From: Bacteroidota bacterium
GTDB lineage: Bacteria; Bacteroidota; Bacteroidia; AKYH767-A; 2013-40CM-41-45
Direction of reading: 5' to 3'
Length of the DNA: 38,492 nt
Assembly (NCBI GenBank): GCA_026391945.1
Contig: JAPLDA010000015.1
Span: 1-38,492 of the forward strand
The position numbers were made by a program, and so were the translations under genes. Shown here piece after piece: positions 3,468-28,724 of the stretch; position 1 is the stretch's first letter; every line of letters begins with the position of its first letter. The notes below the pieces were generated by a model that saw nothing but the letters and a program-made list of their open reading frames with translations, was not told the origin of the DNA and did not search any database.

Positions 3468-3470
3468 TTG

Positions 3471-4088
3471 ATGATGCCGGATTCCCCGCAAGCTATGGAC
3501 GCGCTTTCACAAAACATCACCATCTCCATCAAACACATGGTGAGCAGCCGTTGCATGAAAGTGATCAGGGAGGAGTTGGAGAAGACTCAGAAAATTTTCG
3601 TACACAAAATTTCTCTTGGCTCGGCGGACATTTCTTTTGACCCCGTTGCCGTTACGTTGGATGACATCTCCCGGATCCTATCTGCAAACGGATTTGAGCT
3701 GATCCACGACAAGGAAACGATGCTCGTTGAGCAGATAAAAATTGCCGTCCTCGAAATGATTTTTTACGGCAACAACCTCAACACCATCATCCGCAACTCC
3801 GATTACCTGGGCGATAAGCTCGGAATGCCATATGTGCAGGTGAGCAAAATTTTTTCTGAACGAACCGGTTCGACGCTGGAGAAGTACATCATCCTTGTAA
3901 AAATTGAACGGGTGAAAGAACTCATCAGCTACGGCGAAATGACGCTGAGCGAAATTGCATACATGATGGGTTACAGCAGTGTGCAATACCTCAGCAACCA
4001 GTTCCGGCAGGTGTCCGGTTTTTCCGTTTCCGAATTCAAGAGTCTCCCTGAAAAGCCGCGCCGGCCGCTCGATTCGCTGCTTGCATAA
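3471..4088 (+). CDS. AraC-family regulator with HMA-like N-terminal domain
   Basis: A one-component transcription factor of a Bacteroidota-specific AraC group of about 200 residues. Residues 16-75 have the beta-alpha-beta-beta-alpha-beta pattern of a heavy-metal-associated (HMA) domain. Residues about 105-195 are two helix-turn-helix units (EKYIILVKIERVKEL, LSEIAYMMGYSSVQYLSNQF), the second with the typical AraC signature. In relatives the first loop often carries a C-x-x-C pair. Here it reads MVSSRC, leaving a single Cys (C28), so metal binding by two thiols is doubtful. I chose the ATG at 3471; TTG at 3468 and ATG at 3474 are alternatives. It follows metG directly and precedes the PqqD-type operon, whose upstream region holds direct repeats suited to an AraC-type activator. 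Confidence 0.85.
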   Translation: MMPDSPQAMDALSQNITISIKHMVSSRCMKVIREELEKTQKIFVHKISLGSADISFDPVAVTLDDISRILSANGFELIHDKETMLVEQIKIAVLEMIFYGNNLNTIIRNSDYLGDKLGMPYVQVSKIFSERTGSTLEKYIILVKIERVKELISYGEMTLSEIAYMMGYSSVQYLSNQFRQVSGFSVSEFKSLPEKPRRPLDSLLA

Positions 4089-4179: not shown

Positions 4180-4440
4180 ATGAAAATAAGAAAAAACATT
4201 GCCGTGAGTGATTCCGGTTTCATCTTTAATCCTTCTACGGGAGATTCTTTTTCTACCAACCCAATCGGTTTGGAAATTATCCAGATGCTGAAGGAAGAGA
4301 AGAGCAAAGAAGAAATGCGGAAGACGATTCTCCAGAAGTACCAGGTGGATGAAGCAACCTTTGAAAAGGATTTTTATGACTTCGTAAGCATGCTTCACCA
4401 GACACAAATCATATCCCAGGATGAAGAAAAGAAAAATTAA
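4180..4440 (+). CDS. PqqD-like protein (RiPP recognition element fold)
   Basis: An 86-residue PqqD-superfamily protein. PqqD domains are winged-helix peptide-binding modules that hold the leader part of a substrate for modifying enzymes. The family features are the opening IRKNIAVSDSGFIFNPSTGDSF (two beta-strands), then NPIGLEIIQMLKEEKS, then a helix-turn-helix-like part with YQVDEATFEKDFYDFVSML. I chose the ATG at 4180 because it begins the conserved region; the frame is open upstream, but the extra residues look like leader sequence. Its end overlaps the ATP-grasp gene by 20 nt, so they are translated as a pair. No free precursor peptide is visible nearby. The likely partner is the N-terminal tail of the decarboxylase at 5563. 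Function beyond the fold is inference. Confidence 0.82.
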   Translation: MKIRKNIAVSDSGFIFNPSTGDSFSTNPIGLEIIQMLKEEKSKEEMRKTILQKYQVDEATFEKDFYDFVSMLHQTQIISQDEEKKN

Positions 4441-5470
4441 TATCGCTGTAACCGGCCTGAACAACATCGACAGTCCGGGTCCCGGAATTCCTGTGATCCG
4501 TGCGTTGCGCGACAGCAAAAAATTTGATGTGCGCATCATCGGGCTTTCGTACGAAACGCTGGAGCCGGGTTTGTACATGCACGATCTCGTGGATAAGTCG
4601 TACCAGGTTCCTTTTCCATCAGCAGGAACAGAAGCCTTGCTGGAACGGCTCCGCTACATTCATTCGGTGGAAAAAATAGATGTGATCATTCCGAATTTTG
4701 ATGCGGAGTTGCAAAACTTCATCAAACTGGAGGAAACGCTGAAGAAGGAAATGGGAATCAGCATGTTTCTGCCTACGCACGACCAGTTTGAAGAACGCCA
4801 CAAAGCCAACCTGATGGAATTCGGGAAACAGCATGGCATCCAGGTTCCGTTTGGTAAAATGATTTTCAGCACGGCGGAGATTCCGTCTCTCACCAAAGAC
4901 TTCACCTATCCTGTTGTGGTGAAAGGAAAATACTACGATGCTTCCGTGGCTTACAACCCGGAACAGGTCGCCACGTATTTTAATAAACTCAGTGCGAAGT
5001 GGGGATTGCCCATCATCATCCAACAATATGTGTTCGGATCGGAAGTAAATGTGACCGCCATCGGAGATGGAAAAGGAAATGCCATCGGAGCCGTTCCCAT
5101 GAGGAAACAATACATCACCGATAAAGGAAAAGCATGGGCCGGTATTTCTCTCGATGATGAAAAGCTGGTTTCAATCGCCAACAAACTGCTGGCTTCTTCC
5201 AAATGGCGCGGAGGCATGGAACTGGAATTCATCAAATCGGCCGCCGGAGAATATTTTCTTCTTGAAATCAATCCGCGGTTTCCGGCATGGGTGTATCTCG
5301 CTGTCGGCTGCGGACAAAATCATCCTGAAGCATTGGTGCTGATGGCGCTTGGCGAAAAAGTAAAACCCTTCAAAGAGTATGAGAAAGGAAAATTATTCGT
5401 CCGCTACTCTTACGATCTGATCGTGGATCTGAAAGAATTCGAAACGATCTCAACCCTTGGAGAGCTTTGA
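4421..5470 (+). CDS. ATP-grasp domain carboxylate-amine ligase-like protein
   Basis: A 349-residue ATP-grasp enzyme; such enzymes couple ATP hydrolysis to amide or ester bond formation through an acyl phosphate. The N-terminal third (INIAVTGLNN, then RIIGLSYE, then DVIIPNFDAEL) is a Rossmann-like pre-ATP-grasp domain. The central part has PVVVKGKYYDA (ATP-binding lysine) and an IIIQQYVFGSEVNV strand. The C-terminal metal-binding block is MELEF plus EINPRFP at about 282-288, with E and N as expected magnesium ligands. The overall pattern is closest to CarB/PurK-like ligases. The substrates are unknown. It overlaps the PqqD-like gene by 20 nt and precedes the decarboxylase gene after 92 bp. Confidence 0.85.
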   Translation: MKKRKINIAVTGLNNIDSPGPGIPVIRALRDSKKFDVRIIGLSYETLEPGLYMHDLVDKSYQVPFPSAGTEALLERLRYIHSVEKIDVIIPNFDAELQNFIKLEETLKKEMGISMFLPTHDQFEERHKANLMEFGKQHGIQVPFGKMIFSTAEIPSLTKDFTYPVVVKGKYYDASVAYNPEQVATYFNKLSAKWGLPIIIQQYVFGSEVNVTAIGDGKGNAIGAVPMRKQYITDKGKAWAGISLDDEKLVSIANKLLASSKWRGGMELEFIKSAAGEYFLLEINPRFPAWVYLAVGCGQNHPEALVLMALGEKVKPFKEYEKGKLFVRYSYDLIVDLKEFETISTLGEL

Positions 5471-5511
5471 TTCATTGAGCGCTTTTAACAATTCAAAAAT
5501 CAATGAATCAA
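5467..5511. promoter_or_regulatory. 12-bp perfect inverted repeat between ATP-grasp and decarboxylase genes
   Basis: TTGATTCATTGA (5467-5478) and TCAATGAATCAA (5500-5511) are exact inverted copies separated by 21 nt. The left arm contains the last two bases of the ATP-grasp stop codon. There is no T-run after the right arm, so it is not a typical intrinsic terminator. It could be an operator, an mRNA processing or stabilising hairpin, or a site separating expression of the ligase and the decarboxylase. Confidence 0.45.
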
Positions 5512-5562
5512 TATTAAACAATCATTAATAATTCAATGGTAATATAAAACACTATTTTCATT

Positions 5563-6921
5563 ATGTCTAAACTCCCTTATGAACGCCCCGTCATCCAACG
5601 ATTGAACACCGGTTCGATGAACAAATTCGGAACCCGTACCGAGTATGCGCCGGTTACTCACATCGAAAATGTATCCGTGAAAAGTCTGATCAGTGAATTC
5701 GGATCTCCTTTGTTTGTCATTTCCGAAAACAAAATCCGGCAACTGTACAGCGATGTGACCCGTGCTTTCAAAACGCGTTACCCGCGTGTTCAGTTTGCAT
5801 GGTCGTACAAAACCAATTACATGAATGCCGTGTGCAATGTTTTTCATCAGCTCGGTTCATGGGCTGAAGTGGTTTCCGGTTTTGAATACAACAAAGCGCT
5901 GAAGAACGGTGTTCCCGGCAGCAAAATTATTTTTAATGGTCCTGATAAAACCGATGATGAACTCACGCTTGCTATCAGGAATGATTCACTCATTCACATT
6001 GATCACCTCGATGAGTTGTACCGCATCATCGAACTGGCAGTTGAATTGAAAAAACGTCCGAAGGTTGCCATCCGTGTCAACATGGATGTAGGCATTTACC
6101 CGATGTGGGATCGTTTTGGTTTCAACTATGAAAACGGACAGGCATGGGATGCCATCAACAAAATAATTCTCACCGATAAAATCGACCTGGTCGGTTTGCA
6201 TGCGCACATCGGAACGTTTATGCTTTCTCCGCAGGCCTATGGCGTAGCGGCTTCCAAGCTTGCCGATCTGGCTTACCATACCAAAATCAAATTTGAAAAG
6301 AACATCGAATACATTGATCTCGGCGGCGGCTTTGCATCCAAAAATACGCTGAAGGGTTCTTACCTGAAAGGAAGTGATTCTTCTCCTTCTTTTGATGATT
6401 ACGCGGAAGCCATCAGCACGGCTTTGCTGAATGCTGAATATACCAAAGAGCACATGCCGCTGCTGATTCTTGAATCAGGAAGAGCATTGATCGATGAAGC
6501 CGGCTTCCTGCTGGGAACGGTGATCGCGAACAAACGGTTGTCGGATGGAAGACGTTCCACCATTCTTGATTTCGGAGTCAATATTCTGTTCACGGCATTC
6601 TGGTACGATCATAAAATTTCCCCGGCGCAGGATTTCAGTCATTACACCGAGGATACCGTTTTGTACGGACCCCTGTGCATGAACATCGATGTCGTTCGTG
6701 AAAATGTTACATTGCCTCCGATGAAAAAAGGTGATCAGGTGGTGGTGCATACGGTGGGCGCTTACAACATGACGCAATGGATGCAGTTCATCTCGCTCCG
6801 CCCGAACATCGTGCTGATCGATACGAATGGAAAAACGCATCTCATCCGGGCGAAAGAAAGTCTCGATACGTTGAACAGCCAGGAGCGGATGCCGGCACAT
6901 CTTTCATCTTTTAAATTGTAA
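5563..6921 (+). CDS. Fold-type III PLP decarboxylase (DAP/ornithine decarboxylase-like) with leader-like N-terminal tail
   Basis: A 452-residue enzyme of the LysA/ODC superfamily (alanine-racemase-like barrel plus beta domain). The PLP lysine is K83 in FAWSYKTNYM. HIGT (215-218), GGG (254-256) and ESGR (304-307, normally EPGR) bind the cofactor. DRFGF (183-187) matches the SRFGF specificity segment, and the catalytic Cys is C372 in GPLCMNID. Diaminopimelate decarboxylases have Glu right after this Cys; here it is Met, so DAP is unlikely to be the substrate. The first 30 or so residues precede the normal enzyme start and contain Y6-x-x-P9-x-I11...G17 followed by MNKFG. This resembles the YxxPxL...G leader motif that PqqD-like RRE proteins bind in lasso-peptide systems. 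A tail that docks to the PqqD-like protein at 4180 is my inference. Confidence 0.82.
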   Translation: MSKLPYERPVIQRLNTGSMNKFGTRTEYAPVTHIENVSVKSLISEFGSPLFVISENKIRQLYSDVTRAFKTRYPRVQFAWSYKTNYMNAVCNVFHQLGSWAEVVSGFEYNKALKNGVPGSKIIFNGPDKTDDELTLAIRNDSLIHIDHLDELYRIIELAVELKKRPKVAIRVNMDVGIYPMWDRFGFNYENGQAWDAINKIILTDKIDLVGLHAHIGTFMLSPQAYGVAASKLADLAYHTKIKFEKNIEYIDLGGGFASKNTLKGSYLKGSDSSPSFDDYAEAISTALLNAEYTKEHMPLLILESGRALIDEAGFLLGTVIANKRLSDGRRSTILDFGVNILFTAFWYDHKISPAQDFSHYTEDTVLYGPLCMNIDVVRENVTLPPMKKGDQVVVHTVGAYNMTQWMQFISLRPNIVLIDTNGKTHLIRAKESLDTLNSQERMPAHLSSFKL

Positions 6922-6949
6922 AATTCAGTACGAAAACCCGAAAGCATTT

Positions 6950-9151
6950 GTGGAGCAATTGAATTATTACAGAAAACTTTTTGCTGAAGGCATCTTAAAA
7001 AGTTATGCCCAGATTTTCTTTTCTGCCAGCAACACGTTTGCTTCCATCATCCTTGTGGCCACGCTGATCAACCCGACTTCAGGAGTCGCCGGGCTGATTT
7101 CACTTTTGTTTACCATGATCTTCGCCGTATGGTTTGGATTCAGTCATGTAAACATCCGCAATGGAATCTATGGATTCAACAGCATCCTCACAGGGTTGCT
7201 CATCGGTTCTTTTTTCCAGTTCAGTTTACCGATGTTCATCCTGTTGTTCATCGCTTCACTGCTGAATTTACTGATCACGATTGGTTTTTCGGGGATTGCA
7301 TCGCGATACCATGTTCCGTTTCTCTCCCTTCCGTTTTTATTTACATGCTGGCTGATCTTACTGGCGGCGGGAAATTATCATGGACTCACCACCAATGATT
7401 TCAATGTGTTTATCTATAGTAAGCTTTACTGGCTGGGCGGACAGTCGCTCGTTGATTTTTATGATCACCTGAAATTTTACCGGCTTCCGCTCTGGATGGA
7501 TACGTATTTCAAATCTCTCGGAGCGATTTTATTTCAATACAATCTCCTCTCAGGATTGCTGATCGCTGCCGGTCTTCTTTATTTTTCTCGCATTGCCTTT
7601 TCACTTTCACTCATCGGTTTCATCAGCGGGTATTTCACCTATCATTATTTGTTCAACAATACAACCGGACTCGATTATTCTTTTTATGGTTTCAATTTTA
7701 TTCTGACATCGATCGGCATCGGCGGGTTTTTCCTGATCCCGAATAAATATTCTTATTCATTGGCGATATTACTGTCGGTATTGTCGGCCCTGGTCATTGG
7801 TTCCGTCAGTAATTTCTTCAATGTATTTCATTTGCCGGTGTATTCATTGCCGTTTTGCATCCTGATTATTCTCACCTTATATACCATGCAATTCAGGTGG
7901 AGGCACGACCGTTTCATCCGTGTCATTTACCAGCTGATCAGTCCGGAAAAAAATCTCTACCGCCATTTGCTTTACCAGCAGCGGTACAGGAATACGGTTT
8001 CATTCGATTTGTTCCTGCCGTTCAACGGAGTGTGGCATGTATCGCAGGGTTATAACGGGAAACAAACACACCGTGAAGACTGGAAGCATGCGCTGGATTT
8101 TGTGATCAGGGATGAAGAAAAAAAAACATACCGGCTTCCCGGAACTTCCGTGGAACATTATTATTGTTACAACCTTCCCGTGGTAGCTCCCGCTGCCGGG
8201 TGGGTGGAGAAAATCGTCGACGGAGTTTTCGACAACGACATTGGCGACGTGGATGTCAACCGCAACTGGGGAAATACGATTGTGATCCGTCACAGCAACT
8301 TTTTATTCAGCCAGGTCAGCCACCTGAAGAAAGGAACTTTTAAAGTGAGAGTGGGAGATTATGTAAACAAAGGTGATGTGCTGGCCATGAATGGAAACTC
8401 CGGCAGGTCACCGGAACCTCACATCCATTTCCAGTTGCAGGCAACATCACAGATCGGTTCCAAAACAATTCCTTTCCCAATAAGTTTTTTCATGAAGCAT
8501 GATGGTGATCGTGTCTTCCTTAAATCGTATGAAGTACCGGCGGAAGGCGATACCATTTCCAATGTCGAAGTGAGTTCTGTTCTGAAAGATGCATTTCACT
8601 TTATTCCCGGTAAAAAATTTGTGTTACAAGTCACCGGTCATAAGAAGGAACCTTATTATACCACGTGGGAAGTTTTCACGGATGCGTACAACAATTCATA
8701 TTTGTATTGCAGCGTTTCGAAAGCGGTGGCATATTTCACCAACAACGGAACGGTGCACCAGTTCACCAGTTTCAGCGGGGAACAGGATTCGGCCTTGTTT
8801 CATTTTTACCTGGCGGCTTACCGGGTGCTGCTCGGGTTTTATGATCGCTTAAGCCTCGATGATGCATTGCCGCTCGATGTCATGCACAATCGTTTTGCAT
8901 TTCTTATCCAGGATTGGATTGCGCCGTTTAAAGTATTTATGAAGGCGGATTACAGGCTCGATTATTCTTCCCGCGACAACGACGTATTCACCAGTAAAAT
9001 GACGTTGAACTCCACGTGTTGCAACCGGTATGGAAAGAAGATGCACAACATCAGCAACTATGAAATGAATTTATCAGCCAATCGCATCGACACCTTAAAG
9101 ATTGACTCAAAAAATAAACACATCGAATTAAAATTTATCCCAGGCAAGTGA
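6950..9151 (+). CDS. Urea-transporter-family membrane protein fused to an M23 (LytM-type) peptidase domain
   Basis: A 733-residue protein with two parts. Residues about 10-325 are a polytopic membrane region with the two-fold pattern of the UT family, such as IYGFNSILTGLLIG in the first half and FYGFNFILTSIGIGG in the second, each after an FSASNTF/LFQYNLLSG-type segment. Residues about 350-530 are an M23 metallopeptidase domain: H380-x-x-D383 (HALDF) and H491-I-H493 (PEPHIHFQL) supply the zinc and catalytic residues, so it appears active. M23 enzymes cut peptidoglycan peptide bridges. A further 200 residues follow with no recognised domain. The only plausible start is GTG at 6950; no ATG exists before the first membrane segment. 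It ends GTGA, overlapping the next gene. The transported molecule is unknown; a product of the upstream enzymes is an inference. Confidence 0.85.
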   Translation: MEQLNYYRKLFAEGILKSYAQIFFSASNTFASIILVATLINPTSGVAGLISLLFTMIFAVWFGFSHVNIRNGIYGFNSILTGLLIGSFFQFSLPMFILLFIASLLNLLITIGFSGIASRYHVPFLSLPFLFTCWLILLAAGNYHGLTTNDFNVFIYSKLYWLGGQSLVDFYDHLKFYRLPLWMDTYFKSLGAILFQYNLLSGLLIAAGLLYFSRIAFSLSLIGFISGYFTYHYLFNNTTGLDYSFYGFNFILTSIGIGGFFLIPNKYSYSLAILLSVLSALVIGSVSNFFNVFHLPVYSLPFCILIILTLYTMQFRWRHDRFIRVIYQLISPEKNLYRHLLYQQRYRNTVSFDLFLPFNGVWHVSQGYNGKQTHREDWKHALDFVIRDEEKKTYRLPGTSVEHYYCYNLPVVAPAAGWVEKIVDGVFDNDIGDVDVNRNWGNTIVIRHSNFLFSQVSHLKKGTFKVRVGDYVNKGDVLAMNGNSGRSPEPHIHFQLQATSQIGSKTIPFPISFFMKHDGDRVFLKSYEVPAEGDTISNVEVSSVLKDAFHFIPGKKFVLQVTGHKKEPYYTTWEVFTDAYNNSYLYCSVSKAVAYFTNNGTVHQFTSFSGEQDSALFHFYLAAYRVLLGFYDRLSLDDALPLDVMHNRFAFLIQDWIAPFKVFMKADYRLDYSSRDNDVFTSKMTLNSTCCNRYGKKMHNISNYEMNLSANRIDTLKIDSKNKHIELKFIPGK

Positions 9152-10389
9152 TACGCTTCTTTTTACATCGGCTGTTCCGTCAGAAACATAGTTTTCTGAA
9201 AGCATGGATGTTTGTTGTGTTGAACATTTTTTGCATGACCGTTTCCCATGCACAGGAGGAGTTGAATTCTTCCGTCGTTGAAAAAAAATCGTTTGAATTA
9301 TTCAGCGCCGGTAAGTGGGATGAACTGGTTTCATTCTCCAAAGAAGCCATCGGCAAGGGCTACGATTATTTTTACCTTCGCTACCGTTACGGGTATGCGT
9401 TGTATTCATTGCAGCGTTACAGGCAGGCAACGATGCAGTTTCAGCATGCTTCCCATTTTAATTCAACGGATTCACTCAACCGTGTGATGTTGTACTATTC
9501 ATACAGCCAGTCGGAACGGTTTACCGATGCAACCTTGATTGAAGCCGTTGCAACCGGGAAACAGGTGAGTAGCCCTTTGGATTTTCTCTATGCGGAGACC
9601 GGTGAAAAAATCAGCGATACTCCCGATTCGATTGGCAACATGTTTTTCTTTCACTTCGGTTTGCAGAGCCGGTTCAGCAGGAGAATCAGTTTGTACGGCG
9701 GTTACTCGTATTCAAGCCAGGATTTTTTCCGCGATACCATTTCACAAAATCAATTGCTTCTGAAAGGAGAAATCAAGCTGGCACGGGGAATAAGCTTTGT
9801 TCCGGTGTTTAGTTTGTTGTCAGTAACCCTTACGACAGCCATCCCAAGACCACCTCCTCCTATGATGCCTCCTGGAGCAAAGCCGCCACCGCCAATTCCT
9901 GTTATCAATACAACCTCCAATTATGTTACTGGAGCAAATGCCCGTGTTTCATTCGGAATATTGGATGTAAAAGCCGGAGGTTATGTGCTTCGCTTCGACG
10001 GTAAAAATAATTTGCAGTTCCCGGTTTCAGTGAATGCATATCCATTTGGAAACGACCGCCTGGTTTGTTTTTCGGAAATGAATATGCTGCACGACAGTTT
10101 GAAAACGAATTCGTTTTTCAAAGAAGGAATCCGGGTTCGTGCGATGAAGGATTTCTGGATCAGCGCCGAGTATATGAAATCAAACCTTGCCAACTTCCTG
10201 GAGTCTGAGGGTTATTCCATTGATAATTCGCAAAACATCCTGAACGGCCGGTTGCAGGTTTCCGGAATTGTTCATGTGAATCACTGGAATCTCTACCTTA
10301 CTTATCAACATGAAAAACGAACGACCTTTCATTTCAATCAATCTTATTCTCTGAATAATTTCTTTCTTGGCCTCAAATTTAGTTTCTGA
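9148..10389 (+). CDS. TPR-containing outer-membrane beta-barrel protein (YaiO-like)
   Basis: A 413-residue exported protein. A signal peptide ends near VSHAQ, about residue 36 from the GTG start; an ATG at 9205 would give a tighter signal peptide. Residues about 40-130 are TPR-like helices (YFYLRYRYGYALYSLQRYRQA). From about 155 the chain alternates short amphipathic strands and ends in FFLGLKFSF, with the terminal Phe typical of outer-membrane barrels. Residues 232-252 hold a proline-rich loop (PRPPPPMMPPG, then KPPPPIPV), probably exposed. TPR plus barrel recalls YaiO-family proteins. The GTG start overlaps the TGA of the transporter/peptidase gene, which indicates translational coupling. 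It may anchor the system at the outer membrane; this is inferred from order only. Confidence 0.75.
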   Translation: MIRFFLHRLFRQKHSFLKAWMFVVLNIFCMTVSHAQEELNSSVVEKKSFELFSAGKWDELVSFSKEAIGKGYDYFYLRYRYGYALYSLQRYRQATMQFQHASHFNSTDSLNRVMLYYSYSQSERFTDATLIEAVATGKQVSSPLDFLYAETGEKISDTPDSIGNMFFFHFGLQSRFSRRISLYGGYSYSSQDFFRDTISQNQLLLKGEIKLARGISFVPVFSLLSVTLTTAIPRPPPPMMPPGAKPPPPIPVINTTSNYVTGANARVSFGILDVKAGGYVLRFDGKNNLQFPVSVNAYPFGNDRLVCFSEMNMLHDSLKTNSFFKEGIRVRAMKDFWISAEYMKSNLANFLESEGYSIDNSQNILNGRLQVSGIVHVNHWNLYLTYQHEKRTTFHFNQSYSLNNFFLGLKFSF

Positions 10390-10406
10390 AAAAATAAATC
10401 CATACT

Positions 10407-11033
10407 ATGAAAAATAAATTTCAAAAAATCTGCCTGGTTGTTTTTTGTGTCAGCACATCAGCCATCTATTCCCAAACATCTGACCTCGTGGTGATGCAGA
10501 AAGCATTTGCTTCCAGTTATACCAGTGAGTACAACAAGGATTACTCAAAAGCGATTGCCGATCTGAAAACCATCTACCACGAAAAATCCTATGAACTTAA
10601 TCTCCGCCTGGGCTGGCTGAATTATGAGAACCAGTTGTATTCAGAAAGCATCAGCTATTATAAAAATGCGATGAAGCTGATGCCGTATTCCATCGAAGCC
10701 AAATTCGGATTCGTTTACCCGGCTGCCGCTCTTGGCAACTGGGATGATGTCCTGAAAACGTATCTTGATATTTTATCCATCGACCCTCAAAATACAACGG
10801 CTCTTTACCGCCTTGGAATTATTTATTATTCCAGGAATGATTATGGCAACGCCGAAAAATATTTTGAAAAATTGGTGAACCTGTACCCGTTTGGGTACGA
10901 TGGCGTCATCAACCTCGCCTATGCAAAAATGAATGTGAACAAAACAGAAGAAGCCCGCTTGCTTTTCAATAAAGCCCTGATGATTTACCCTTCCGATACT
11001 ACGGCAGCAAAAGGGTTGAGGCTGTTGAAGTAA
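10407..11033 (+). CDS. Exported tetratricopeptide repeat protein
   Basis: A 208-residue protein with a clear Sec signal peptide (cleavage near AIYSQ, residue 23) and four to five TPR units, for example LNLRLGWLNYENQLYSESISYYKNAMKL-type and TALYRLGIIYYSRNDYGNAEKYFEKLVNLYP-type pairs of helices. No lipobox is present, so it should be soluble in the periplasm. It lies 17 bp after the barrel protein and is probably the last gene of the operon that starts at 4180. TPRs bind protein partners; candidates are the TPR part of the barrel protein or the M23 domain. No enzymatic motif is visible. Confidence 0.8.
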   Translation: MKNKFQKICLVVFCVSTSAIYSQTSDLVVMQKAFASSYTSEYNKDYSKAIADLKTIYHEKSYELNLRLGWLNYENQLYSESISYYKNAMKLMPYSIEAKFGFVYPAAALGNWDDVLKTYLDILSIDPQNTTALYRLGIIYYSRNDYGNAEKYFEKLVNLYPFGYDGVINLAYAKMNVNKTEEARLLFNKALMIYPSDTTAAKGLRLLK

Positions 11034-11111: not shown

Positions 11112-11735
11112 ATGGAAGCATTGAACAGCATTGAAGAGTTTAAAGCGTCACCTGAAATACGCGGAAAACTTTCAGGATATGGAATTGCAAAATCATTTCA
11201 TGAAGGCGATATCATATTAAATGAAAATGCAAACATCAAAGCCATCCCGATTGTCACCAAAGGCAGCATGAAAGTGATGCGTACCGATGAGGATGGGAGG
11301 GAATTGCTTTTGTATTACATCAAAGCAGGTGAAAGTTGCATCATGTCTTTTCTCGGAGCCATGCACCATGAAACAAGCAAGGTGAAAGCCATCGCAGAAG
11401 AAGACACCGAAATTCTTTTTATTCCCGTTGATAAAGTCGGGTCACTCATCAAAGAATATCCCGAATGGCTCGATTATATTTTTCGCCTCTACCATAAACG
11501 GTTTGAAGAATTGCTGGATGTGGTGAATGCCATCGCTTTTAAAAAAATGGATGAACGGCTTCTTCAGTCCATCAAAAAGAAATCGGAAATATCCGGCAGC
11601 CAGACACTGCAGGTGACACACGAACAACTGGCCAATGAACTGGGGACTGCGCGCGTGGTGGTTTCCCGGCTGCTCAAGCAAATGGAAGATGAGGGCCTGG
11701 TTAAACTGGGCAGAAATAAAATCACCCTTGTGTAA
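11112..11735 (+). CDS. Crp/Fnr-family transcriptional regulator
   Basis: A 207-residue regulator with a cyclic-nucleotide-binding-like beta-roll (residues about 20-110, with GDIILNENANI and KGSMKVMRTDEDGRELLLYYIKAGESC), a long dimer helix, and a C-terminal winged helix (VTHEQLANELGTARVVVSRLLKQMEDEGLV). There is no Fnr-type four-cysteine iron-sulfur cluster. A single Cys lies at the end of the beta-roll block (GESCIMSF), which could be a redox or nitrosation sensor, though that is speculation. It precedes the rhodanese/methyltransferase/thioredoxin genes, and a TGTAAC-type palindrome follows its stop codon, so it probably controls that operon. Confidence 0.9.
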   Translation: MEALNSIEEFKASPEIRGKLSGYGIAKSFHEGDIILNENANIKAIPIVTKGSMKVMRTDEDGRELLLYYIKAGESCIMSFLGAMHHETSKVKAIAEEDTEILFIPVDKVGSLIKEYPEWLDYIFRLYHKRFEELLDVVNAIAFKKMDERLLQSIKKKSEISGSQTLQVTHEQLANELGTARVVVSRLLKQMEDEGLVKLGRNKITLV

Positions 11736-11775
11736 CAAATGTGACTGTAAGGCCCCGGTAAATGATGGAGCTTTG
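11731..11775 (+). promoter_or_regulatory. Crp/Fnr-like site plus promoter for the sulfur/redox operon
   Basis: TGTAAC-AAAT-GTGACT at 11731-11746 is an imperfect palindrome of the TGTAAC-N4-GTTACA type used by several Bacteroidota Crp/Fnr regulators. Its centre is 11738.5. A partial -7 box, GAGCTTTG, lies at 11768-11775. A start site five bases further on would put the palindrome at about -41.5, the class II activator position. The left arm overlaps the regulator's own stop codon. Confidence 0.5.
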
Positions 11776-11806
11776 CAGACAAATTAATCACTAAAAACTA
11801 ATCACT

Positions 11807-12031
11807 ATGAAACAAAACATGGGAGCCTCCGACCGCTTCGTAAGAATTCTCCTGGCAATCATCGTTGCGGCACTTTACCTGACCCACCAGGTTTCAGGAA
11901 CTATTGCCATCGTTCTTTTGATTCTTGCCGGAGTGTTTGTCCTGACAAGCATCTTTAGTTTTTGTCCGTTGTATTTACCATTCGGACTTTCAACAGGGAA
12001 AAAGCAGCAGGAATCCGAAACAGCAAAATAA
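11807..12031 (+). CDS. YgaP-type transmembrane protein (DUF2892-like)
   Basis: A 74-residue membrane protein with two closely spaced hydrophobic segments (LLAIIVAALYLTH and IAIVLLILAGVFVLTSIF). The N-terminal MGASDRFVRI pattern is typical of the DUF2892 family, in which the same module is attached to rhodanese in E. coli YgaP. A CPLYLPFGLST motif follows the second segment. It is the first gene of the operon with two rhodanese proteins, which fits a sulfur-transfer setting. Confidence 0.85.
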   Translation: MKQNMGASDRFVRILLAIIVAALYLTHQVSGTIAIVLLILAGVFVLTSIFSFCPLYLPFGLSTGKKQQESETAK

Positions 12032-12073
12032 ATTGGTCATCATGGTTTAAATCACCAGAATGGATCCATACCA

Positions 12074-12286
12074 ATGAATTTTATCAGCAAAAATAAACTC
12101 ACACTCATCGGGATTGTGATCGGTGCAACCGGCGGCTATCTATATTATCATTTTATAGGCTGCTCCGGCGGAACATGTCCCATCACATCGAAACCACTGA
12201 ACAGCACCTTATACGGAAGTGTCATGGGTGGTTTATTATTCAGTATGTTTCAAAAAGAAAAACAAAATAGAAATCAAGATTCATGA
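12074..12286 (+). CDS. DUF6132-type small membrane protein
   Basis: A 70-residue protein with an N-terminal transmembrane segment (LTLIGIVIGATGGYLYYHFIG), a conserved loop GCSGGTCPITSKP with two cysteines, and a second, weaker segment (LYGSVMGGLLFSMF). This CSGGTCPI pattern is the hallmark of DUF6132 proteins, which commonly accompany rhodanese genes in Bacteroidota. Its stop overlaps the rhodanese start (ATGA at 12283). The two Cys could accept or relay sulfur at the membrane; this is inference. Confidence 0.8.
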   Translation: MNFISKNKLTLIGIVIGATGGYLYYHFIGCSGGTCPITSKPLNSTLYGSVMGGLLFSMFQKEKQNRNQDS

Positions 12287-12543
12287 ACAACAAGAGTAAA
12301 ACAATTGTAGATGTAAGAACACCCGGAGAATTCATGGGTGGAAATGTAGCCGGCTCCATCAACATTCCTTTGCAGGAGATTGCGCAGCGACTGGATGAGC
12401 TGAAACAATTGCCGCAGCCGATCATTTTGTGTTGCGCCAGCGGCAACCGCAGCGGACAGGCAACTGCATTCCTGAGAAACTCAGGTATTGAATGTGAAAA
12501 CGGCGGCAGCTGGCTGGATGTGAATGATACCGTTTGTCAATAA
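12283..12543 (+). CDS. Single-domain rhodanese
   Basis: An 86-residue rhodanese domain (sulfurtransferase). It has the DVRTPGEFMGGNVAGSINIP block and the active-site loop C51-A-S-G-N-R56, with an extra Cys just before it (CCASGNRSG). The six-residue loop is that of persulfide-forming rhodaneses. No signal peptide, so cytoplasmic. ATGA overlap with the upstream membrane protein; 9 bp before the methyltransferase gene. Confidence 0.92.
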   Translation: MNNKSKTIVDVRTPGEFMGGNVAGSINIPLQEIAQRLDELKQLPQPIILCCASGNRSGQATAFLRNSGIECENGGSWLDVNDTVCQ

Positions 12544-12552
12544 GATAAAATC

Positions 12553-13404
12553 ATGGAACCGAAGGACGAATTGCAATGCTGTGTCACCACCTGTGGTTTG
12601 CCGTTGAATGCAAATTACTGGGACCAGCAGTATCAAAACAACGAAACGGGCTGGGACATGAACCAGGTTTCACCCCCTGTCAAAAATTATATAGACACCC
12701 TTTCCGGCAAGGCTATAAAGATTCTGATTCCGGGCTGCGGCAATGCGTACGAGGCGGAGTATTTAATGGAAAATGGCTTCACGAATGTCACCTTGATTGA
12801 TATAGCCGGAACACTGGTGAACAGCCTAAGAGAAAAATTTTCCGGGAAGCCGATTCGGATTTTACACCAGGATTTTTTTGAACACAATGAAAAATATGAT
12901 CTGATTCTTGAACAAACATTCTTCTGCGCCATCAATCCTTCACTGAGAGAACGGTATGCTGCCAAATGTTTTCACCTGTTGAATGGAGGAGGAAAAATTG
13001 CCGGATTATTATTCAACATTGAATTTGAAAGGGACGGTCCGCCATTCGGTGGAAAAAGGGAAGATTATCAAATCTTGTTTGAGCCGATGTTTCACCTGGA
13101 ACAATTTGATAAGTGTGAAACGTCCATTCCGAAAAGACAAGGCAACGAACTGTTTGTTGAAATGAAGAAAAAAAATATGTCTGCGGATTGGGTAAAACTT
13201 TACAGGACTACCGGAATCACCTGCAGCGGATGTAAGAGAACGGTTACTCAGAAATTATTGAAAACAGAGGGAGTGAAGTCGGTTTCCATCAACTCTGATT
13301 TTTCCGAACTTCTTGTGGTTAGCAATCAACCAGCTCCTCTTGAAGTTCTGCGGAATGCACTGGCTGATGACACGAATTATCAACTGAACGAAACTTTTAT
13401 TTAA
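12553..13404 (+). CDS. TPMT-family S/halide methyltransferase fused to a heavy-metal-associated (HMA) domain
   Basis: A 283-residue fusion. Residues 20-205 are a thiopurine/thiol/halide S-methyltransferase-type SAM domain: YWDQQY...TGWDMNQVSPP at the start, the SAM motif ILIPGCGNAYEAEYL at 57-71, and ERDGPPFGGKREDY at 159-172. Residues 214-283 are an HMA domain with GITCSGCKRTV (C224 and C227), a metal-binding loop used by copper chaperones and metal ATPases. The first 15 residues hold C9, C10 and C14, an extra possible metal or persulfide site. Family members methylate thiols, selenols or halides. Coupling to an HMA domain suggests methylation of a soft metal(loid) or of persulfide; that is inference. 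It is flanked by rhodanese genes. Confidence 0.85.
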   Translation: MEPKDELQCCVTTCGLPLNANYWDQQYQNNETGWDMNQVSPPVKNYIDTLSGKAIKILIPGCGNAYEAEYLMENGFTNVTLIDIAGTLVNSLREKFSGKPIRILHQDFFEHNEKYDLILEQTFFCAINPSLRERYAAKCFHLLNGGGKIAGLLFNIEFERDGPPFGGKREDYQILFEPMFHLEQFDKCETSIPKRQGNELFVEMKKKNMSADWVKLYRTTGITCSGCKRTVTQKLLKTEGVKSVSINSDFSELLVVSNQPAPLEVLRNALADDTNYQLNETFI

Positions 13405-13413
13405 AACAAAACC

Positions 13414-13728
13414 ATGATACAAGCGATTAAAAATTTATTCGGAATAAAACCGGCGGTCAATTTCAATGAACTGATGGAACAGGGCGCCACCATTATTGAC
13501 GTGCGCTCCAAAGGAGAATACCAGGGCGGTCACATCAAAGGTTCGGTGAACATTCCATTGGATAATTTAAAAAACCATTTGTCGAAATTTAAAAAGGACC
13601 AACCCATCATCACCTGTTGTGCCTCCGGGATGAGAAGCGCTTCTGCTAAAAGTATTTTGAAATCAGGCGGGTTTGAAAATGTGCACAACGGCGGTGGCTG
13701 GATGAGTCTGAGAAATAAAATCCGGTGA
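13414..13728 (+). CDS. Rhodanese-domain protein
   Basis: A 104-residue protein with a short N-terminal helix (IQAIKNLFGIKP) before a rhodanese domain. IIDVRSKGEYQGGHIKGSVNIPLDN and the active loop C69-A-S-G-M-R74 are intact, again with a second Cys just before the active one. It differs from the rhodanese at 12283 by its N-terminal extension. It sits 9 bp after the methyltransferase and 1 bp before a Cys-rich membrane protein. Confidence 0.92.
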   Translation: MIQAIKNLFGIKPAVNFNELMEQGATIIDVRSKGEYQGGHIKGSVNIPLDNLKNHLSKFKKDQPIITCCASGMRSASAKSILKSGGFENVHNGGGWMSLRNKIR

Positions 13729-13729
13729 C

Positions 13730-13996
13730 ATGAGCTATTTCAAGCTGCCGCTTTTCGTCAACTGGAATTCCATGCGTTGGATACAACTCATCTTTGGAGT
13801 CTTTTTTTTCATCCAGGGAATTTATTCGCACGACTGGGTACCCGTTATGGGCGGCGGATGGTTTTGTTACATGGCATTCGGCAATGTGAGTTGTTGCGGA
13901 GCATACGGATGTGACAACAATCAGTTTTCAACTACCAAAAAATCATTGCCGGAAAAGGAACCCGTCACTTCCTTTGAAGAACTGAAGGGGAAATAA
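13730..13996 (+). CDS. Small Cys-rich membrane protein of unknown function
   Basis: An 88-residue protein with one or two membrane segments ([19 protein letters not shown], then a weaker [15 protein letters not shown]) followed by a cysteine motif SCCGAYGC and a charged tail. I do not recognise a named family. It recalls the small membrane partners seen beside rhodaneses in other Bacteroidota. It starts 1 bp after the rhodanese stop, so co-translation is very likely. The CCxxxxC motif suggests handling of metal or sulfane sulfur; no function is proven. Confidence 0.78.
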
Positions 13997-14009
13997 ATTT
14001 CAAAACATC

Positions 14010-14309
14010 ATGTCACAGAAATTTTCAGAGCTAATCCAATCAGGGAAACCGGTGTTGGTTGATTTTTCAGCGGAGTGGTGCGGCCCGTGCAAAATGATGG
14101 CGCCTATACTGGTTGAACTCAAAGAAAAAATAGGGGAGAAGGCAAGCATTGTAAAAGTAGATGTGGATAAAAACCCTGCTGCCGCACAGGCCTATCAAAT
14201 ACAAGGTGTGCCCACGCTCATCTTGTTTATGAACGGTGAAATAAAATGGAGACAATCGGGAGTGGTATCTGCAGCACACCTGGCACAAGTCATCGAACGG
14301 CATACCTGA
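14010..14309 (+). CDS. Thioredoxin
   Basis: A 99-residue cytoplasmic thioredoxin. It has the canonical W23-C-G-P-C27 site and the cis-proline in GVPT. Length and motifs are those of a standard single-domain thioredoxin. It lies 13 bp after the Cys-rich membrane protein and 39 bp before the CoA-disulfide-reductase-like gene. Its likely job in this operon is reducing rhodanese persulfides or the reductase; this is inference from position. Confidence 0.92.
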
Positions 14310-14348
14310 TCAAAAAAATATAAGGTTCAAAATCTATAACTGGTAACT

Positions 14349-16013
14349 ATGAAGTACATCATTGTGGGTGCTGTGGCAGGAGGAGCAAGTACTGCTGCAC
14401 GGCTGAGAAGAATGGATGAACAGGCAGAGATCATCATTTTTGAAAAGGGAGAATATATTTCGTATGCCAATTGCGGGTTGCCTTATTATATTGGGGATGT
14501 CATCAAAGACAGGAACAAACTTTTTGTTCAGACGGCGGCCGCTTTCAACAGGAGGTTTAACATTGATGTGAGGGTAATGACGGAAGTAACAGCGATTGAT
14601 CCGTCACGGAAAATCATTACTGCAAAAGAACAAACGACCGGGAAGATATACGAAGAGGCCTATGACAAACTGGTGTTGTCGCCGGGTGCAGAACCCATTC
14701 GTCCGCCGCTTCCGGGAATTATGAGCGAAGGAATATTCACCTTGAGAAATGTGAATGATACTGACTATATAAAAAATTATATACAACAGAAGAAGGCAAA
14801 AAAAGCCGTGGTGATCGGCGGCGGGTTCATCGGTTTGGAAATGGCGGAAAACCTGCATGACATCGGGCTGGACGTAACCATTGTCGAAATGACCAACCAG
14901 ATCATGGCTCCTGTTGATTTTCCGATTGCCGCAATTGTGCAGGAACACATCCGTTCCAAAGGTGTTCATCTTCATTTGAACACAACGGTTACCGGCTTTG
15001 AGAAAAATGATAAGCAACTGAACGTATTGTTGAAGAATGGCGATGCATTGGATGCCGACATCATCATTCTTTCCATTGGCGTAAGGCCGGATACAAAACT
15101 TGCAACTGCAGCAGGACTGCAGATCGGTGATGCAAAAGGAATCCGGGTGAATGAATATTTACAAACGTCCGATCCTGATATATATGCCGTTGGAGATGCT
15201 ATTGAATTCAGGAATCCAATCACCAATCAATCCATGATCACCTATCTCGCCGGCCCTGCCAACAAACAAGGCCGTATCTGTGCGGATAATATCGTGCTGG
15301 GCAATGTGAAAAAATACAACGGCGCCATCAACACCGCAATCGTGAAGGTGTTTGATATGACGGTGGCTTCTGCCGGCACGGCATCCAAACATTTGCACGC
15401 AGCCAACATTCAGCATGTGGTATCCACGACACACAATGGTTCTCATGCCGGGTATTATCCGGGAGCAAAACAAATGAGCATTCAAATTGCATTTTCACCG
15501 GAAGACGGCCGCTTGCTGAGTGCCCAAATCGCAGGTTATGATGGTGTGGATAAACGCCTCGATGTGATGGCATCCGTGATCAAAAGAAACGGAACCATTT
15601 ATGAGCTCACCGAATTTGAACATGCTTATGCGCCACCGTATTCATCCGCTAAAGACCCGGTAAACATGTCAGGATTTGTCGCCGAGAATATTTTGCATAA
15701 AAGACTGAATATTTTTTACTGGAATGAATTCGATAAAATAAAACCGGGTGATCTTTTAATTGATGTGCGCAGGAAAGATGAATTTGATTCCGGTAAAATA
15801 AATAACGCCATCAACATTCCTATTGATGAGATCAGGGATCGTCTCAGTGAAATTCCCAAAGACAAAAATATTTTCATCTACTGCGAAGCCGGGCTGAGAG
15901 GATATTTAGCGCAACGTATTTTAAAACAAAGCGGGTATCACCAGGTGTTCAACATGTCAGGCGGCTACCGGCTATGGAAATCGTGCATGAATGAAAGTGG
16001 TGTTATCGGTTAA
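14349..16013 (+). CDS. CoA-disulfide reductase/polysulfide reductase-like flavoprotein with C-terminal rhodanese domain
   Basis: A 554-residue FAD- and NAD(P)-dependent disulfide reductase. Residues 1-40 form the FAD site (IIVGAVAGGASTAARLRR). The redox Cys is C42 in SYANCGLPYYIG, the single-cysteine signature of CoA-disulfide reductases, and a second Rossmann motif (VVIGGGFIGLE) lies near 153-163. GDAIEF near 280 closes the FAD domain, and a dimerisation domain follows. Residues about 465-545 are a rhodanese domain with C512 in CEAGLR. The fusion matches CoADR-Rhd/Npsr enzymes, which reduce CoA persulfide, polysulfide or sulfur. It is the last gene of the operon. Confidence 0.92.
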   Translation: MKYIIVGAVAGGASTAARLRRMDEQAEIIIFEKGEYISYANCGLPYYIGDVIKDRNKLFVQTAAAFNRRFNIDVRVMTEVTAIDPSRKIITAKEQTTGKIYEEAYDKLVLSPGAEPIRPPLPGIMSEGIFTLRNVNDTDYIKNYIQQKKAKKAVVIGGGFIGLEMAENLHDIGLDVTIVEMTNQIMAPVDFPIAAIVQEHIRSKGVHLHLNTTVTGFEKNDKQLNVLLKNGDALDADIIILSIGVRPDTKLATAAGLQIGDAKGIRVNEYLQTSDPDIYAVGDAIEFRNPITNQSMITYLAGPANKQGRICADNIVLGNVKKYNGAINTAIVKVFDMTVASAGTASKHLHAANIQHVVSTTHNGSHAGYYPGAKQMSIQIAFSPEDGRLLSAQIAGYDGVDKRLDVMASVIKRNGTIYELTEFEHAYAPPYSSAKDPVNMSGFVAENILHKRLNIFYWNEFDKIKPGDLLIDVRRKDEFDSGKINNAINIPIDEIRDRLSEIPKDKNIFIYCEAGLRGYLAQRILKQSGYHQVFNMSGGYRLWKSCMNESGVIG

Positions 16014-18339: not shown

Positions 18340-18394
18340 ATTTCTATTCCGGCAGCATTTCATCTTCCGGGTTAGATTGCACCGTGTGATGTGT

Positions 18395-20401
18395 ATGGAG
18401 GCAAAACAAAAACATAACTATAGCAAGTGGCGTGCAATCAGCTTAAGTGCTGTGTATGTTCTGATGGGCATTCACATTGCGCACTGGAAAATAGCTGGCA
18501 GTACGCTTGCCCCGCTTGAGCTCAACGAAGTTCTGTACACCCTTCATCTCGGAATTATCACGGCCGGATTTTTATTCATGGGTGTTACGCTGATTGCCAC
18601 TGTTGTTGCCGGACGATTTTTCTGTTCATGGATGTGTCACATCCTTGCCTTGCAGGATGCAAGTGCATGGCTGCTTAAAAAAATCGGCATTCGTCCTAAG
18701 TTCATCCGGTCAAGAACGCTTTTATGGATCCCCGTGATTGTATTGATTTACCTGTTCGTTCTTCCGCAGGTGGAAAGAATTGTTCAGGGTCAGCCGGCCA
18801 TTCACCTGAGAGTTGCCGGTGATGCATCGGGATGGGCTTCTTTTGTAACCACTGATTTCTGGCGCAACCTGCCGGGCTTCTGGGTCACGACTTTTACATT
18901 TCTTTTCTGCGGATCCTTCATCATCTATTTTCTCGGCTCAAGAAGTTTTTGTCTCTATGGTTGTCCGTATGGAGTGCTGTTCGCCCTGACCGACCGGGTA
19001 GCCCCGGGAAGAATTAAGTTGACCGGGGATTGCAACCAGTGCGGCATTTGTACCGCTTCGTGCCAGTCGCATATCCAGGTTCATAAAGAAGTAAATACAT
19101 TCGGAATGGTAGTGAATCCGGATTGTCTTAAAGATCTCGATTGTGTACAGGTCTGTCCCACTGATGCACTGTCTTATGGCATGAAGAAGCCGGCCGGATT
19201 TAAATCGCTCTCGCCATCAAAGAATAATAAAAAGCATTATGATTTTTCGTTGGCAGAAGATCTTTTAATCGTTTCATGTTTGCTGGTTTTCGTTTTTATT
19301 TTCAGGGGACTGTATGATACGATTCCAATCCTGCTGGCGCTGGGGATGGCTCTCATTTTTTCATGGTTTGCAGTGGTGTTTGCCCGCTTGTTTAATCGCG
19401 AATATGTCAGGCTTGGTCATGTACTTCTGAAGAAATCAAAACATTTGACTGTAGCCGGAAGATGGTTCGCATCCATTTTTATTCTCCTGGTAATTTTTTC
19501 CGCGCATAGTGCGTTTATTGATTATCACGTGTATCAAGGGAATAACCAGTATGGAAAAGTTCTGAAGCAGGAAAATGAAATTCCGTTTTCAACCTCCGCC
19601 GAAACAAAGGATATCTTAGAACAGGCATTGCATCATTTGAGTATTGCTGATCAATGGGGTCTTATAACGCCAGCTACCATCAACCGGAAACTGGCAGCCA
19701 TATACATTTACCGGGATGAAAAAGTGAAGGCGAAAGACCAGCTTGAAAAACTTCTCTCACAGTTGCCCGGAGACCTCGAAGCACGTTTGCGTTTTTCAAA
19801 ACTTCTATTTGTTCTGAATGATGAAAGCAAGTGCATGGAAAATCTTCAGTCCATCATAGCCGCAAAAAATGTGGTGACTGATCATGACAAAAAAATACGA
19901 AGTGATGCATCGCTTATGCTGGGTCACATGGAAGAAAAAAACGGTTATGCTTCCGATGCTGAAAGCCGCTACAGGATTGCGCAGAAAGATAACCCGGAAA
20001 ACCATGAAGCGACACTTGCATTAGGTGTATTGCTTGCACGTTCCGGAAAATTCCGGGAAGCGGAAACATTTCTCCTGGAATCGTCGAAGCAGTATCCGAA
20101 TTTAGCATTGATTGAAAACAACCTCAGTGTGATTTACATCCGGCAACATCGTTACCCGGAGGCCATTGTTCACCTGGATGCGTTGATAAAGATTCAACCC
20201 GCCAATCAGCAGGCGCATTACAACAGGGCCATGATGTTATATGGAATGGGAAATAAAGGAGAAGCCATGGCGGCAATGCAGGCGGCCGCTCAGATGAACC
20301 CCGGAAATGCCAACATCAGCGATGCCTTGAAAATGATGATGGACAATAAGAATACAAGCGCAGCCAAACCGAAAAATCAGAAACCCATAGCGATGCACTG
20401 A
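18395..20401 (+). CDS. NapH/NosR-like membrane ferredoxin with C-terminal TPR domain
   Basis: About 668 residues from the ATG at 18395; ATG at 18389 and TTG at 18377 are upstream options. The N-terminal half has four membrane segments with the cysteine motifs RFFCSWMCH and RSFCLYGCPYG of the NapH/NosR/CcoG group. A polyferredoxin follows: CNQCGICTASC and CLKDLDCVQVCPTDAL, enough for two [4Fe-4S] clusters. Two more membrane segments come next, then about 260 residues of TPR units (for example NHEATLALGVLLARSGKFREAE). Such proteins pass electrons between quinol and periplasmic acceptors; CcoG reduces copper for oxidase assembly. The TPR tail is unusual. Context: copper-type oxidase-like protein upstream, CxxCH lipoprotein 41 bp downstream. 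Confidence 0.82.
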   Translation: MEAKQKHNYSKWRAISLSAVYVLMGIHIAHWKIAGSTLAPLELNEVLYTLHLGIITAGFLFMGVTLIATVVAGRFFCSWMCHILALQDASAWLLKKIGIRPKFIRSRTLLWIPVIVLIYLFVLPQVERIVQGQPAIHLRVAGDASGWASFVTTDFWRNLPGFWVTTFTFLFCGSFIIYFLGSRSFCLYGCPYGVLFALTDRVAPGRIKLTGDCNQCGICTASCQSHIQVHKEVNTFGMVVNPDCLKDLDCVQVCPTDALSYGMKKPAGFKSLSPSKNNKKHYDFSLAEDLLIVSCLLVFVFIFRGLYDTIPILLALGMALIFSWFAVVFARLFNREYVRLGHVLLKKSKHLTVAGRWFASIFILLVIFSAHSAFIDYHVYQGNNQYGKVLKQENEIPFSTSAETKDILEQALHHLSIADQWGLITPATINRKLAAIYIYRDEKVKAKDQLEKLLSQLPGDLEARLRFSKLLFVLNDESKCMENLQSIIAAKNVVTDHDKKIRSDASLMLGHMEEKNGYASDAESRYRIAQKDNPENHEATLALGVLLARSGKFREAETFLLESSKQYPNLALIENNLSVIYIRQHRYPEAIVHLDALIKIQPANQQAHYNRAMMLYGMGNKGEAMAAMQAAAQMNPGNANISDALKMMMDNKNTSAAKPKNQKPIAMH

Positions 20402-26975: not shown

Positions 26976-27164
26976 CGTTCTGATTTTTTTGTTTTCGGAA
27001 ATGTTAGGACAAGGGACTATAAGAAAAGTAGGAAAACATTGGTAGACTCAAGCATTCCAATACCTAACTTTTTTATCGGGGATTTTCTGAAAATTGCTGA
27101 ATTCGTTGAAGACCATAAATTGGAGATTCCGGAATTAAATTCAGATGTTATTCAAATGGAATGA
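26976..27164 (+). pseudogene. Possible gene remnant (C-terminal fragment, no start codon)
   Basis: A 62-residue open frame follows a TAG and ends at a TGA at 27162. It has no ATG or GTG. The part from 27039 reads like protein (LVDSSIPIPNFFIGDFLK, then IAEFVEDHKLEIPELNS). I do not recognise the family. It overlaps the end of the fic gene by 13 bp on the opposite strand. It may be the tail of a gene lost when this island formed, or chance. Confidence 0.28.
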
Positions 27165-28264: not shown

Positions 28265-28361
28265 TCTCCGCATTTTATGCGGCAAATATAAGGCTTATTC
28301 TCCGCATTTGTCAAGATAAATTACGCAAAAAATGCGGTGAATAGGGGGATTATCTCCGCAT
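28263..28361. promoter_or_regulatory. Array of CCGCAT/ATGCGG operator-like repeats upstream of fic
   Basis: Five related 11-mers occur in 99 bp: ATTCTCCGCAT (28263-28273), ATGCGGCAAAT (28277-28287, inverted), ATTCTCCGCAT (28297-28307), ATGCGGTGAAT (28332-28342, inverted) and TATCTCCGCAT (28351-28361). The first two form the palindrome CCGCAT-TTT-ATGCGG. The third lies between the -33 and -7 elements, the classical place for repression. The binding protein is unknown; the Fic winged helix is a candidate. Confidence 0.65.
28283..28314 (-). promoter_or_regulatory. fic promoter (-33 TTGACA, -7 TATATTTG)
   Basis: Read on the minus strand, TTGACA lies at 28314-28309 and TATATTTG at 28290-28283, with 21 bp between the TTG and the -7 box. 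TATATTTG matches TAnnTTTG exactly. Transcription would begin near 28277, a dozen bases before the ATG at 28264. Confidence 0.6.
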
Positions 28362-28550
28362 CATCGTGTTCCGACGTGAGAACCTAAAAGGAGGCACTAT
28401 GAGTAGCCACTAACATTTTTAAGACTCTTGTTGATTTTGGATTTAAAATCTGGTAAATATTTTGCCAGAAGGCAATCGCCCAATTGACAAGGGGTTTGGA
28501 GGAAAAGAAAAACAGACTTAACAAGATTTCTCCCGAAAAGTCCGCTTGGG
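28362..28550. other. Gene-free stretch between the fic operators and tRNA-Arg
   Basis: No supported gene. On the minus strand a frame is open from the tRNA edge to a TAG near 28386 (about 50 codons) without homology I can name. On the plus strand AAAAGGAGG at 28386-28394 precedes a four-codon ATG-to-TAA frame at 28399. A strong ribosome-binding site is unusual for this organism, so this may be imported debris. Confidence 0.3.
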
Positions 28551-28622: not shown

Positions 28623-28724
28623 AGGTTAATGCCTGCAAAATTATTTTTTATTCACAGAAGAAAAAATAATAGTTGATCTTCTTCCCAAAGTTTCCGGTTA
28701 CAGGGATTTCCAGTAAGTTTGGGC

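Follow-up and report, generated by a model that had tools for sequence, protein, structure and literature searches.

An exchangeable ligase-decarboxylase head joined to a urea-channel/M23 peptidase tail in a conserved Bacteroidota operon

A conserved two-module operon

A contig of a Bacteroidota bacterium, analysed over a window of 38,492 nucleotides (the whole stretch), carries on its plus strand, at positions 4180-11033, six genes that by sequence comparison form one functional unit with a maintained order. The unit consists of two modules: a head comprising a small PqqD-like protein, an ATP-grasp ligase and a pyridoxal phosphate (PLP)-dependent decarboxylase, and a tail comprising a urea transporter/M23 peptidase fusion (UT-M23), an outer-membrane beta-barrel and a TPR protein. 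The cassette has been kept across the phylum, and in one clade its head has been replaced by an analogous but unrelated pair of enzymes, which points to a selected and apparently unnamed small molecule. The original prediction, made from this DNA alone, had described six genes on one strand with overlaps at 4421 and 9148 and gaps of 92 bp or less; all coordinates were reproduced, and every domain it named except the barrel exceeded its Pfam cut-off, the barrel being recognised through AlphaFold and Foldseek.

4180-4440, plus strand: PqqD-like winged-helix protein of only 86 aa, in the RRE fold family; PF05402
4421-5470, plus strand: PRK12767-like ATP-grasp ligase, 349 aa; PF15632 and PF02655 over cut-off
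5563-6921, plus strand: PLP decarboxylase of fold III (alanine-racemase, AR, fold), 452 aa; exceeds the PF02784 and PF00278 cut-offs
6950-9151, plus strand: UT-M23 fusion (urea transporter/M23), 733 aa; Pfam, AlphaFold and Foldseek
9148-10389, plus strand: outer-membrane beta-barrel with N-terminal TPR; AlphaFold, Foldseek and a signal-peptide-like N-terminus
10407-11033, plus strand: secreted TPR protein, 208 aa; TPR families over cut-off and a signal-peptide-like N-terminus
3468-4088, plus strand: regulator of the AraC family, HMA-like at its N-terminus, linked to the operon but not always present; HTH_18 3.7e-13 and weak HMA-type matches

The PqqD-like and ligase genes overlap by 20 bp and the UT-M23 and barrel genes by 4 bp, and the other spacings are 92 bp (ligase to decarboxylase), 28 bp (decarboxylase to UT-M23) and 17 bp (barrel to TPR gene). 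Scores against the Pfam cut-offs were 41.2 bits versus 23.4 for PF05402, 36.3 versus 29.1 for ATPgrasp_Ter (PF15632; ATP-grasp_3 also exceeded its own), 103.5 versus 23.4 for Orn_Arg_deC_N (PF02784, accompanied by the C-terminal domain), and 190.8 versus 25 and 51 versus 28.7 for UT (PF03253) and Peptidase_M23 (PF01551). As none of the six proteins matched a PADLOC model, an anti-phage defence system was rejected.

The ligase was searched for at E <= 1e-30 in two samples, one of 395 genomes from the class and one of 395 from across the phylum. It is present in 75 genomes of the class sample, spread over 46 of its 197 genera, and in 34 of the phylum sample, and the operon is carried by roughly 9-19% of the genomes sampled. 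Ligase identity is 54-80% across Bacteroidia and many Ignavibacteria, and a GTDB contig scan, by a method that detects close relatives only, matched Bacteroidota and Ignavibacteria only. The order PqqD, ATP-grasp, PLP enzyme, UT-M23, barrel, TPR is kept in about 60 neighbourhoods whose genomic surroundings are unrelated, a recurrence that is far beyond chance. Loss of this order in other genomes had been named as the observation that would overturn the original prediction, and the order instead proved to be conserved across Bacteroidota; the exact gene set is less constant. In four Ignavibacteria loci (L049, L051, L105, L107) the TPR gene precedes a shorter barrel gene, three genomes lack the barrel beside the TPR gene (family f6; L057, L060, L072), and in three genomes (L071, L077, L084) the TPR gene is not at its usual position, with a TPR gene lying about 4 kb upstream in L071 and L084.

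Head and tail are also inherited together. In the phylum sample, the genomes with the ligase and those with a full-length UT-M23 are the identical 34, and in the class sample UT-M23 accompanies the ligase in 73 of 75 genomes (Fisher p about 1e-64, relatedness ignored). In both exceptional genomes the ligase lies near the beginning of its contig, and truncation there may be all that removes the tail. One genome (G026) holds its head (L063) and UT-M23 (L113) at separate loci and has retained both. Conversely, UT-M23 occurs without the ligase in 11 class genomes: one (G307) has the end of a decarboxylase of the same head at a contig edge, two assemblies (G209, 68%; G285, 73%) are incomplete, and the remaining eight carry a different head.

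All-against-all clustering of neighbouring genes gave the AraC-HMA regulator as the sole widely conserved flanking gene, found next to the operon at 13 of 62 loci in that analysis (roughly a third over all loci) and, where present, directly upstream of the PqqD gene. In the window, the HMA-like N-terminus of this regulator lacks one Cys of the usual CxxC (VSSRC).

As the original prediction had supposed, a named pathway with this gene set was not found in the open-access literature, and no description of the set or its parts was found in open-access PMC text; there is a small but real chance that the operon has been described elsewhere. With this operon, fusions of a urea channel to M23 gain a first case for a function, as do PqqD-like proteins away from identifiable clusters for ribosomally synthesised and post-translationally modified peptides (RiPPs), and the chemistry can be assayed directly using only a few soluble proteins.

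Replacement of the head

In these eight genomes the channel-peptidase, TPR and barrel tail is paired with an alternative head (head B) in place of the one described above (head A). Head B comprises a PRK06524-type ATP-grasp ligase (728.9 bits versus a cut-off of 684), a fold-I Orn/Lys/Arg-type decarboxylase of 920 residues (OKR_DC; PF01276, E 1.9e-79) and a small VOC-like protein, and it is divergent from the UT-M23/TPR/barrel genes wherever both share one contig (loci L114, L115, L116, L121 and L122 in genomes G041, G100, G115, G314 and G374; also L140-L142). Finding head B in at least 8 of the 11 genomes would have a chance of 6e-7, and no genome among the 395 holds both heads (p 0.0009; relatedness ignored in both cases). 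Similarity is undetectable between the two decarboxylases and between the VOC-like and PqqD-like proteins, and the two ligases have only the ATP-grasp motif in common.

In a tree of the tails, those paired with head B form one clade (support 100) nested inside the head-A tails, for which a single swap is the simplest reading. As a hint of function the swap is strong, since the replacement head brings the same two kinds of activity with a different decarboxylase fold. On sequence grounds, it implies that the ligase-decarboxylase head would make a small amine carrying an amide link, which the membrane tail would handle, and it strengthens the original proposal that ligation and decarboxylation are the core chemistry.

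Predicted chemistry of the head and topology of the tail

The nearest solved relative of the head-A decarboxylase is the N-citrylornithine decarboxylase 7kh2 (E 4e-60). The catalytic Lys, His and Cys (K83, H215 and C372) are invariant where aligned, as in AR-fold PLP decarboxylases, and the pocket residues are invariant in 60-63 sequences, with Thr344, Phe346, Trp347, Tyr348, Trp406 and Met407 lining the pocket in the alignment to FigC. PLP decarboxylation chemistry requires a free alpha-amine, so the ligated bond should sit on the side chain. Cys372-Met373 aligns with Cys354-Met355 of FigC, and Met373 is present in 60 of 60 aligned sequences. Enzymes that accept an unmodified side-chain amine have an acidic residue directly after the catalytic Cys, at the position of Met in FigC, whose His357 and Arg387 are modelled as contacts to the citryl group (PMC7857480). 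Met in place of an amine-contacting acidic residue is expected if the side-chain amine is already acylated, and the two citryl-contact positions are here Ile375 and Gln405, both invariant. The substrate is therefore probably a diamino acid acylated on its side chain, which would be neutral and not citryl, and we infer that this side chain is not that of free lysine, ornithine, arginine or diaminopimelate.

Neither of the related equivalog families claims the enzyme (NF041039, N-citrylornithine decarboxylase, 240.6 versus a cut-off of 500; TIGR01048, LysA, 220.8 versus 297.9). It resembles the diaminopimelate decarboxylase LysA in fold and catalytic residues, but the position of Arg343 and the acidic residue of that enzyme are replaced. 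Replacement of the housekeeping LysA was rejected, since the genome encodes LysA-like and SpeA-like genes elsewhere. In the ligase, the ExNPR metal-site motif is conserved, and the N-terminus gives a weak PylC-like match below cut-off (18.1 versus 27 bits), which serves as a lead only; PylC acylates the epsilon-amine of lysine.

Two known systems bear comparison. In butirosin side-chain assembly, BtrI is an acyl carrier protein and BtrJ an ATP-grasp ligase, and with BtrK they likewise bring together a small protein, an ATP-grasp ligase and a PLP decarboxylase of the diaminopimelate decarboxylase clade. BtrK structures (7ru7, 2j66) match the operon enzyme at about 1e-24, and BtrK has decarboxylase activity (PMC7857480). 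The small protein of the operon, however, is PqqD-like, with no acyl carrier family among its matches in the profile searches, and the membrane tail is unrelated to butirosin assembly. Rhizoferrin synthesis by FigA/FigC (FslA/FslC) shares ligation to an amino-acid side chain followed by decarboxylation, together with the Cys-Met signature, whereas FigA is an NIS synthetase (of the NRPS-independent siderophore type, NRPS being non-ribosomal peptide synthetase) in the place of an ATP-grasp enzyme, and the citryl-contacting residues are lost here, on which ground a citrate siderophore was rejected.

The PqqD-like protein is present in essentially every head-A locus. Its N-terminal half (SDSGFIFNPSTGDSFSTNPIG) is strongly conserved and its C-terminal tail varies in length and sequence, a pattern that argues for a docking or binding role, as judged from the alignment, and against a C-terminal carrier; a LysW-type carrier, which has a conserved acidic C-terminus, was rejected because of this variable tail.

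The UT-M23 fusion comprises a UT domain (residues 14-312), a LytM/M23 ligand region (374-493) and a C-terminal beta domain (about 510-733), which is encoded at 8477-9148 of the window (about 220 aa) and has no family assignment. In the AlphaFold model (predicted local distance difference test, pLDDT, 91.7), the UT part matches the Desulfovibrio vulgaris urea transporter (dvUT) 3me1 in Foldseek with a TMt of 0.85, and the central part resembles LytM domains. Across 44 sequences the M23 domain shows no variation in its zinc ligands and catalytic His (H374, D383, H458, H491 and H493), and it is thus probably active. The folds are thus those of urea transporters such as dvUT and UT-B and of LytM/M23 peptidases, but here they are joined in a single chain with a change at one pore position and a peptidase predicted to be cytosolic. 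The position aligned to a dvUT pore Glu is mostly Ala, and 51 of 58 sequences retain the pore Gln, both Glu and Gln being taken here as pore residues; the urea transporter equivalog TIGR03441 scores 118.7 versus a cut-off of 274.6. Given the Ala at the Glu position, selectivity probably differs from that for urea.

Both UT termini are cytosolic in UT-B, and the family-averaged number of Lys and Arg residues is 10.3 on the predicted cytosolic loops (6.1 of them in the linker to M23) versus 2.3 on the opposite side. This positive-inside bias, together with homology to UT, would place the M23 domain in the cytosol, a predicted topology in which we have good though not full confidence and which runs counter to the original suggestion that M23 acts on the envelope. 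The nearest relatives of the fused M23 domain are stand-alone M23 proteins. At four loci (L101, L061, L059 and L041) UT-M23 is split at positions that differ among the genomes; we rejected separate UT and M23 genes there, as the pieces resemble frameshifts or stops within one fusion, and their M23 pieces, which lack a signal peptide, are uninformative on the location of the domain.

The barrel gene has no Pfam match. Its AlphaFold model (pLDDT 93) shows a TPR region at the N-terminus followed by a 14-strand barrel, and its best Foldseek matches are outer-membrane proteins, including OmpG/porins, FadL and autotransporter barrels; its true start is possibly an internal ATG at 9208. The TPR protein is a conserved companion in most loci.

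A proposed pathway and its alternatives

We propose a model in which a cytosolic ligase-decarboxylase head supplies a membrane and outer-membrane tail. The ATP-grasp enzyme would create a side-chain amide on a free diamino acid or comparable compound, with the PqqD-like protein presenting the acyl donor or docking the enzymes, and the fold-III PLP enzyme would next strip the alpha-carboxyl to give an N-acyl-type amine. The inner-membrane UT-M23 would receive this product, its predicted cytosolic zinc-peptidase domain probably cleaving an amide at the entrance to this urea-type channel, and passage through the envelope would be completed by the barrel and TPR protein. The side-chain position of the amide, the order of steps, the action of M23 on the product and the direction of transport are the conditional parts, and we put the complete model at about an even chance. 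It is conceivable, though we hold this more tentatively and think it rather unlikely, that the operon exemplifies a class of transporter-coupled pathways in which interchangeable ligase-decarboxylase heads feed a urea-channel/zinc-peptidase fusion, with cytosolic M23 freeing a small product from its carrier into the channel and a dedicated outer-membrane exit.

Several points weigh against this model. The head swap occurred a single time in the tail tree, and it would be strange for a charged amine to leave through a urea-type channel. The one stand-alone relative of the M23 domain whose sequence was inspected (L125) carries a signal peptide, and given this secreted relative the fused domain may instead be periplasmic. 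The context of head B elsewhere looks catabolic, and the head may be degradative and not biosynthetic.

Of the alternatives, all unlikely, the leading one is a RiPP-like or pearlin-like route. Here the PqqD-like protein would be a true RiPP recognition element (RRE) whose target is a ribosomally made scaffold peptide with its gene at another locus; the ligase would extend this scaffold by an amino acid for the decarboxylase to trim, and M23, acting as a leader peptidase, would cleave it off at the membrane ahead of export. PF05402 exceeds its cut-off and the protein has the length of PqqD; its conservation is strongest in the beta-hairpin region, where RREs bind leader peptides; and a peptidase on the side predicted to be cytosolic is joined to a membrane protein, the arrangement of peptidase-containing bacteriocin exporters. 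Against this, no conserved short open reading frame (ORF) was found in the 600 bp preceding the operon at 76 loci or in the 600 bp following it at 62 loci, in line with the original prediction, and the gaps within the operon are mostly too small to hold one; a hidden precursor near the operon was rejected on this basis, and a precursor gene could lie farther away than the 600 bp searched. The RiPP-associated PqqD equivalogs in NCBIfam all score below cut-off (TIGR04353 24.4 versus 35, NF033530 28.2 versus 70, TIGR03859 13.8 versus 46), conserved radical SAM, YcaO or lasso partner enzymes are lacking, and head B has the dissimilar VOC-like gene in the place of PqqD.

A catabolic role, or one in pH or nitrogen homeostasis, seems improbable: ligation would protect a basic amino acid during decarboxylation, M23 would free the amine and the UT domain, whose fold is retained, would vent or import a urea-like nitrogen compound. 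In genomes without UT-M23, head B often lies beside genes for a class-III aminotransferase, a CN hydrolase, an AAT-family protein and an aldehyde dehydrogenase, a seemingly undescribed cluster that looks like amine degradation through a ligated, protected intermediate and from which the ligase-decarboxylase pair may have been recruited. However, these genes are conserved neither near head A nor beside the head B linked to UT-M23, and such a role offers no easy explanation for the TPR protein and a barrel dedicated to it in the outer membrane. Varying subsets of these genes accompany head B at loci L126, L129, L130, L132, L134 and L137 (identified by Pfam at L134 only, and by reading at the others).

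Doubtful above all is a metallophore made by an NIS-like route, with the ATP-grasp and FigC-like enzymes producing a chelator under metal-sensing AraC-HMA control and the barrel transporting it: the decarboxylase is nearest to one from rhizoferrin synthesis (PMC7857480) and the linked regulator has an HMA-like N-terminus, but Ile375 and Gln405 replace the proposed FigC citryl contacts, the NF041039 score is less than half its cut-off, and, with the regulator the only conserved flanking gene, a conserved NIS synthetase is absent.

Elsewhere in the window, positions 11112-16013 adjoin the operon and encode a Crp/Fnr regulator followed by a sulfur-handling cluster of rhodaneses, a TPMT-like methyltransferase/HMA-like fusion (12553-13404), a thioredoxin and a CoA-disulfide-reductase-like/rhodanese fusion (identities by reading, Crp aside). 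A polyferredoxin, CcoG/FixG-like by reading and with TPR-like repeats at its C-terminus, is encoded at 18377-20401, and a Fic-family-like protein (by reading) at 27152-28285 adjoins a tRNA-Arg gene (28547-28623).

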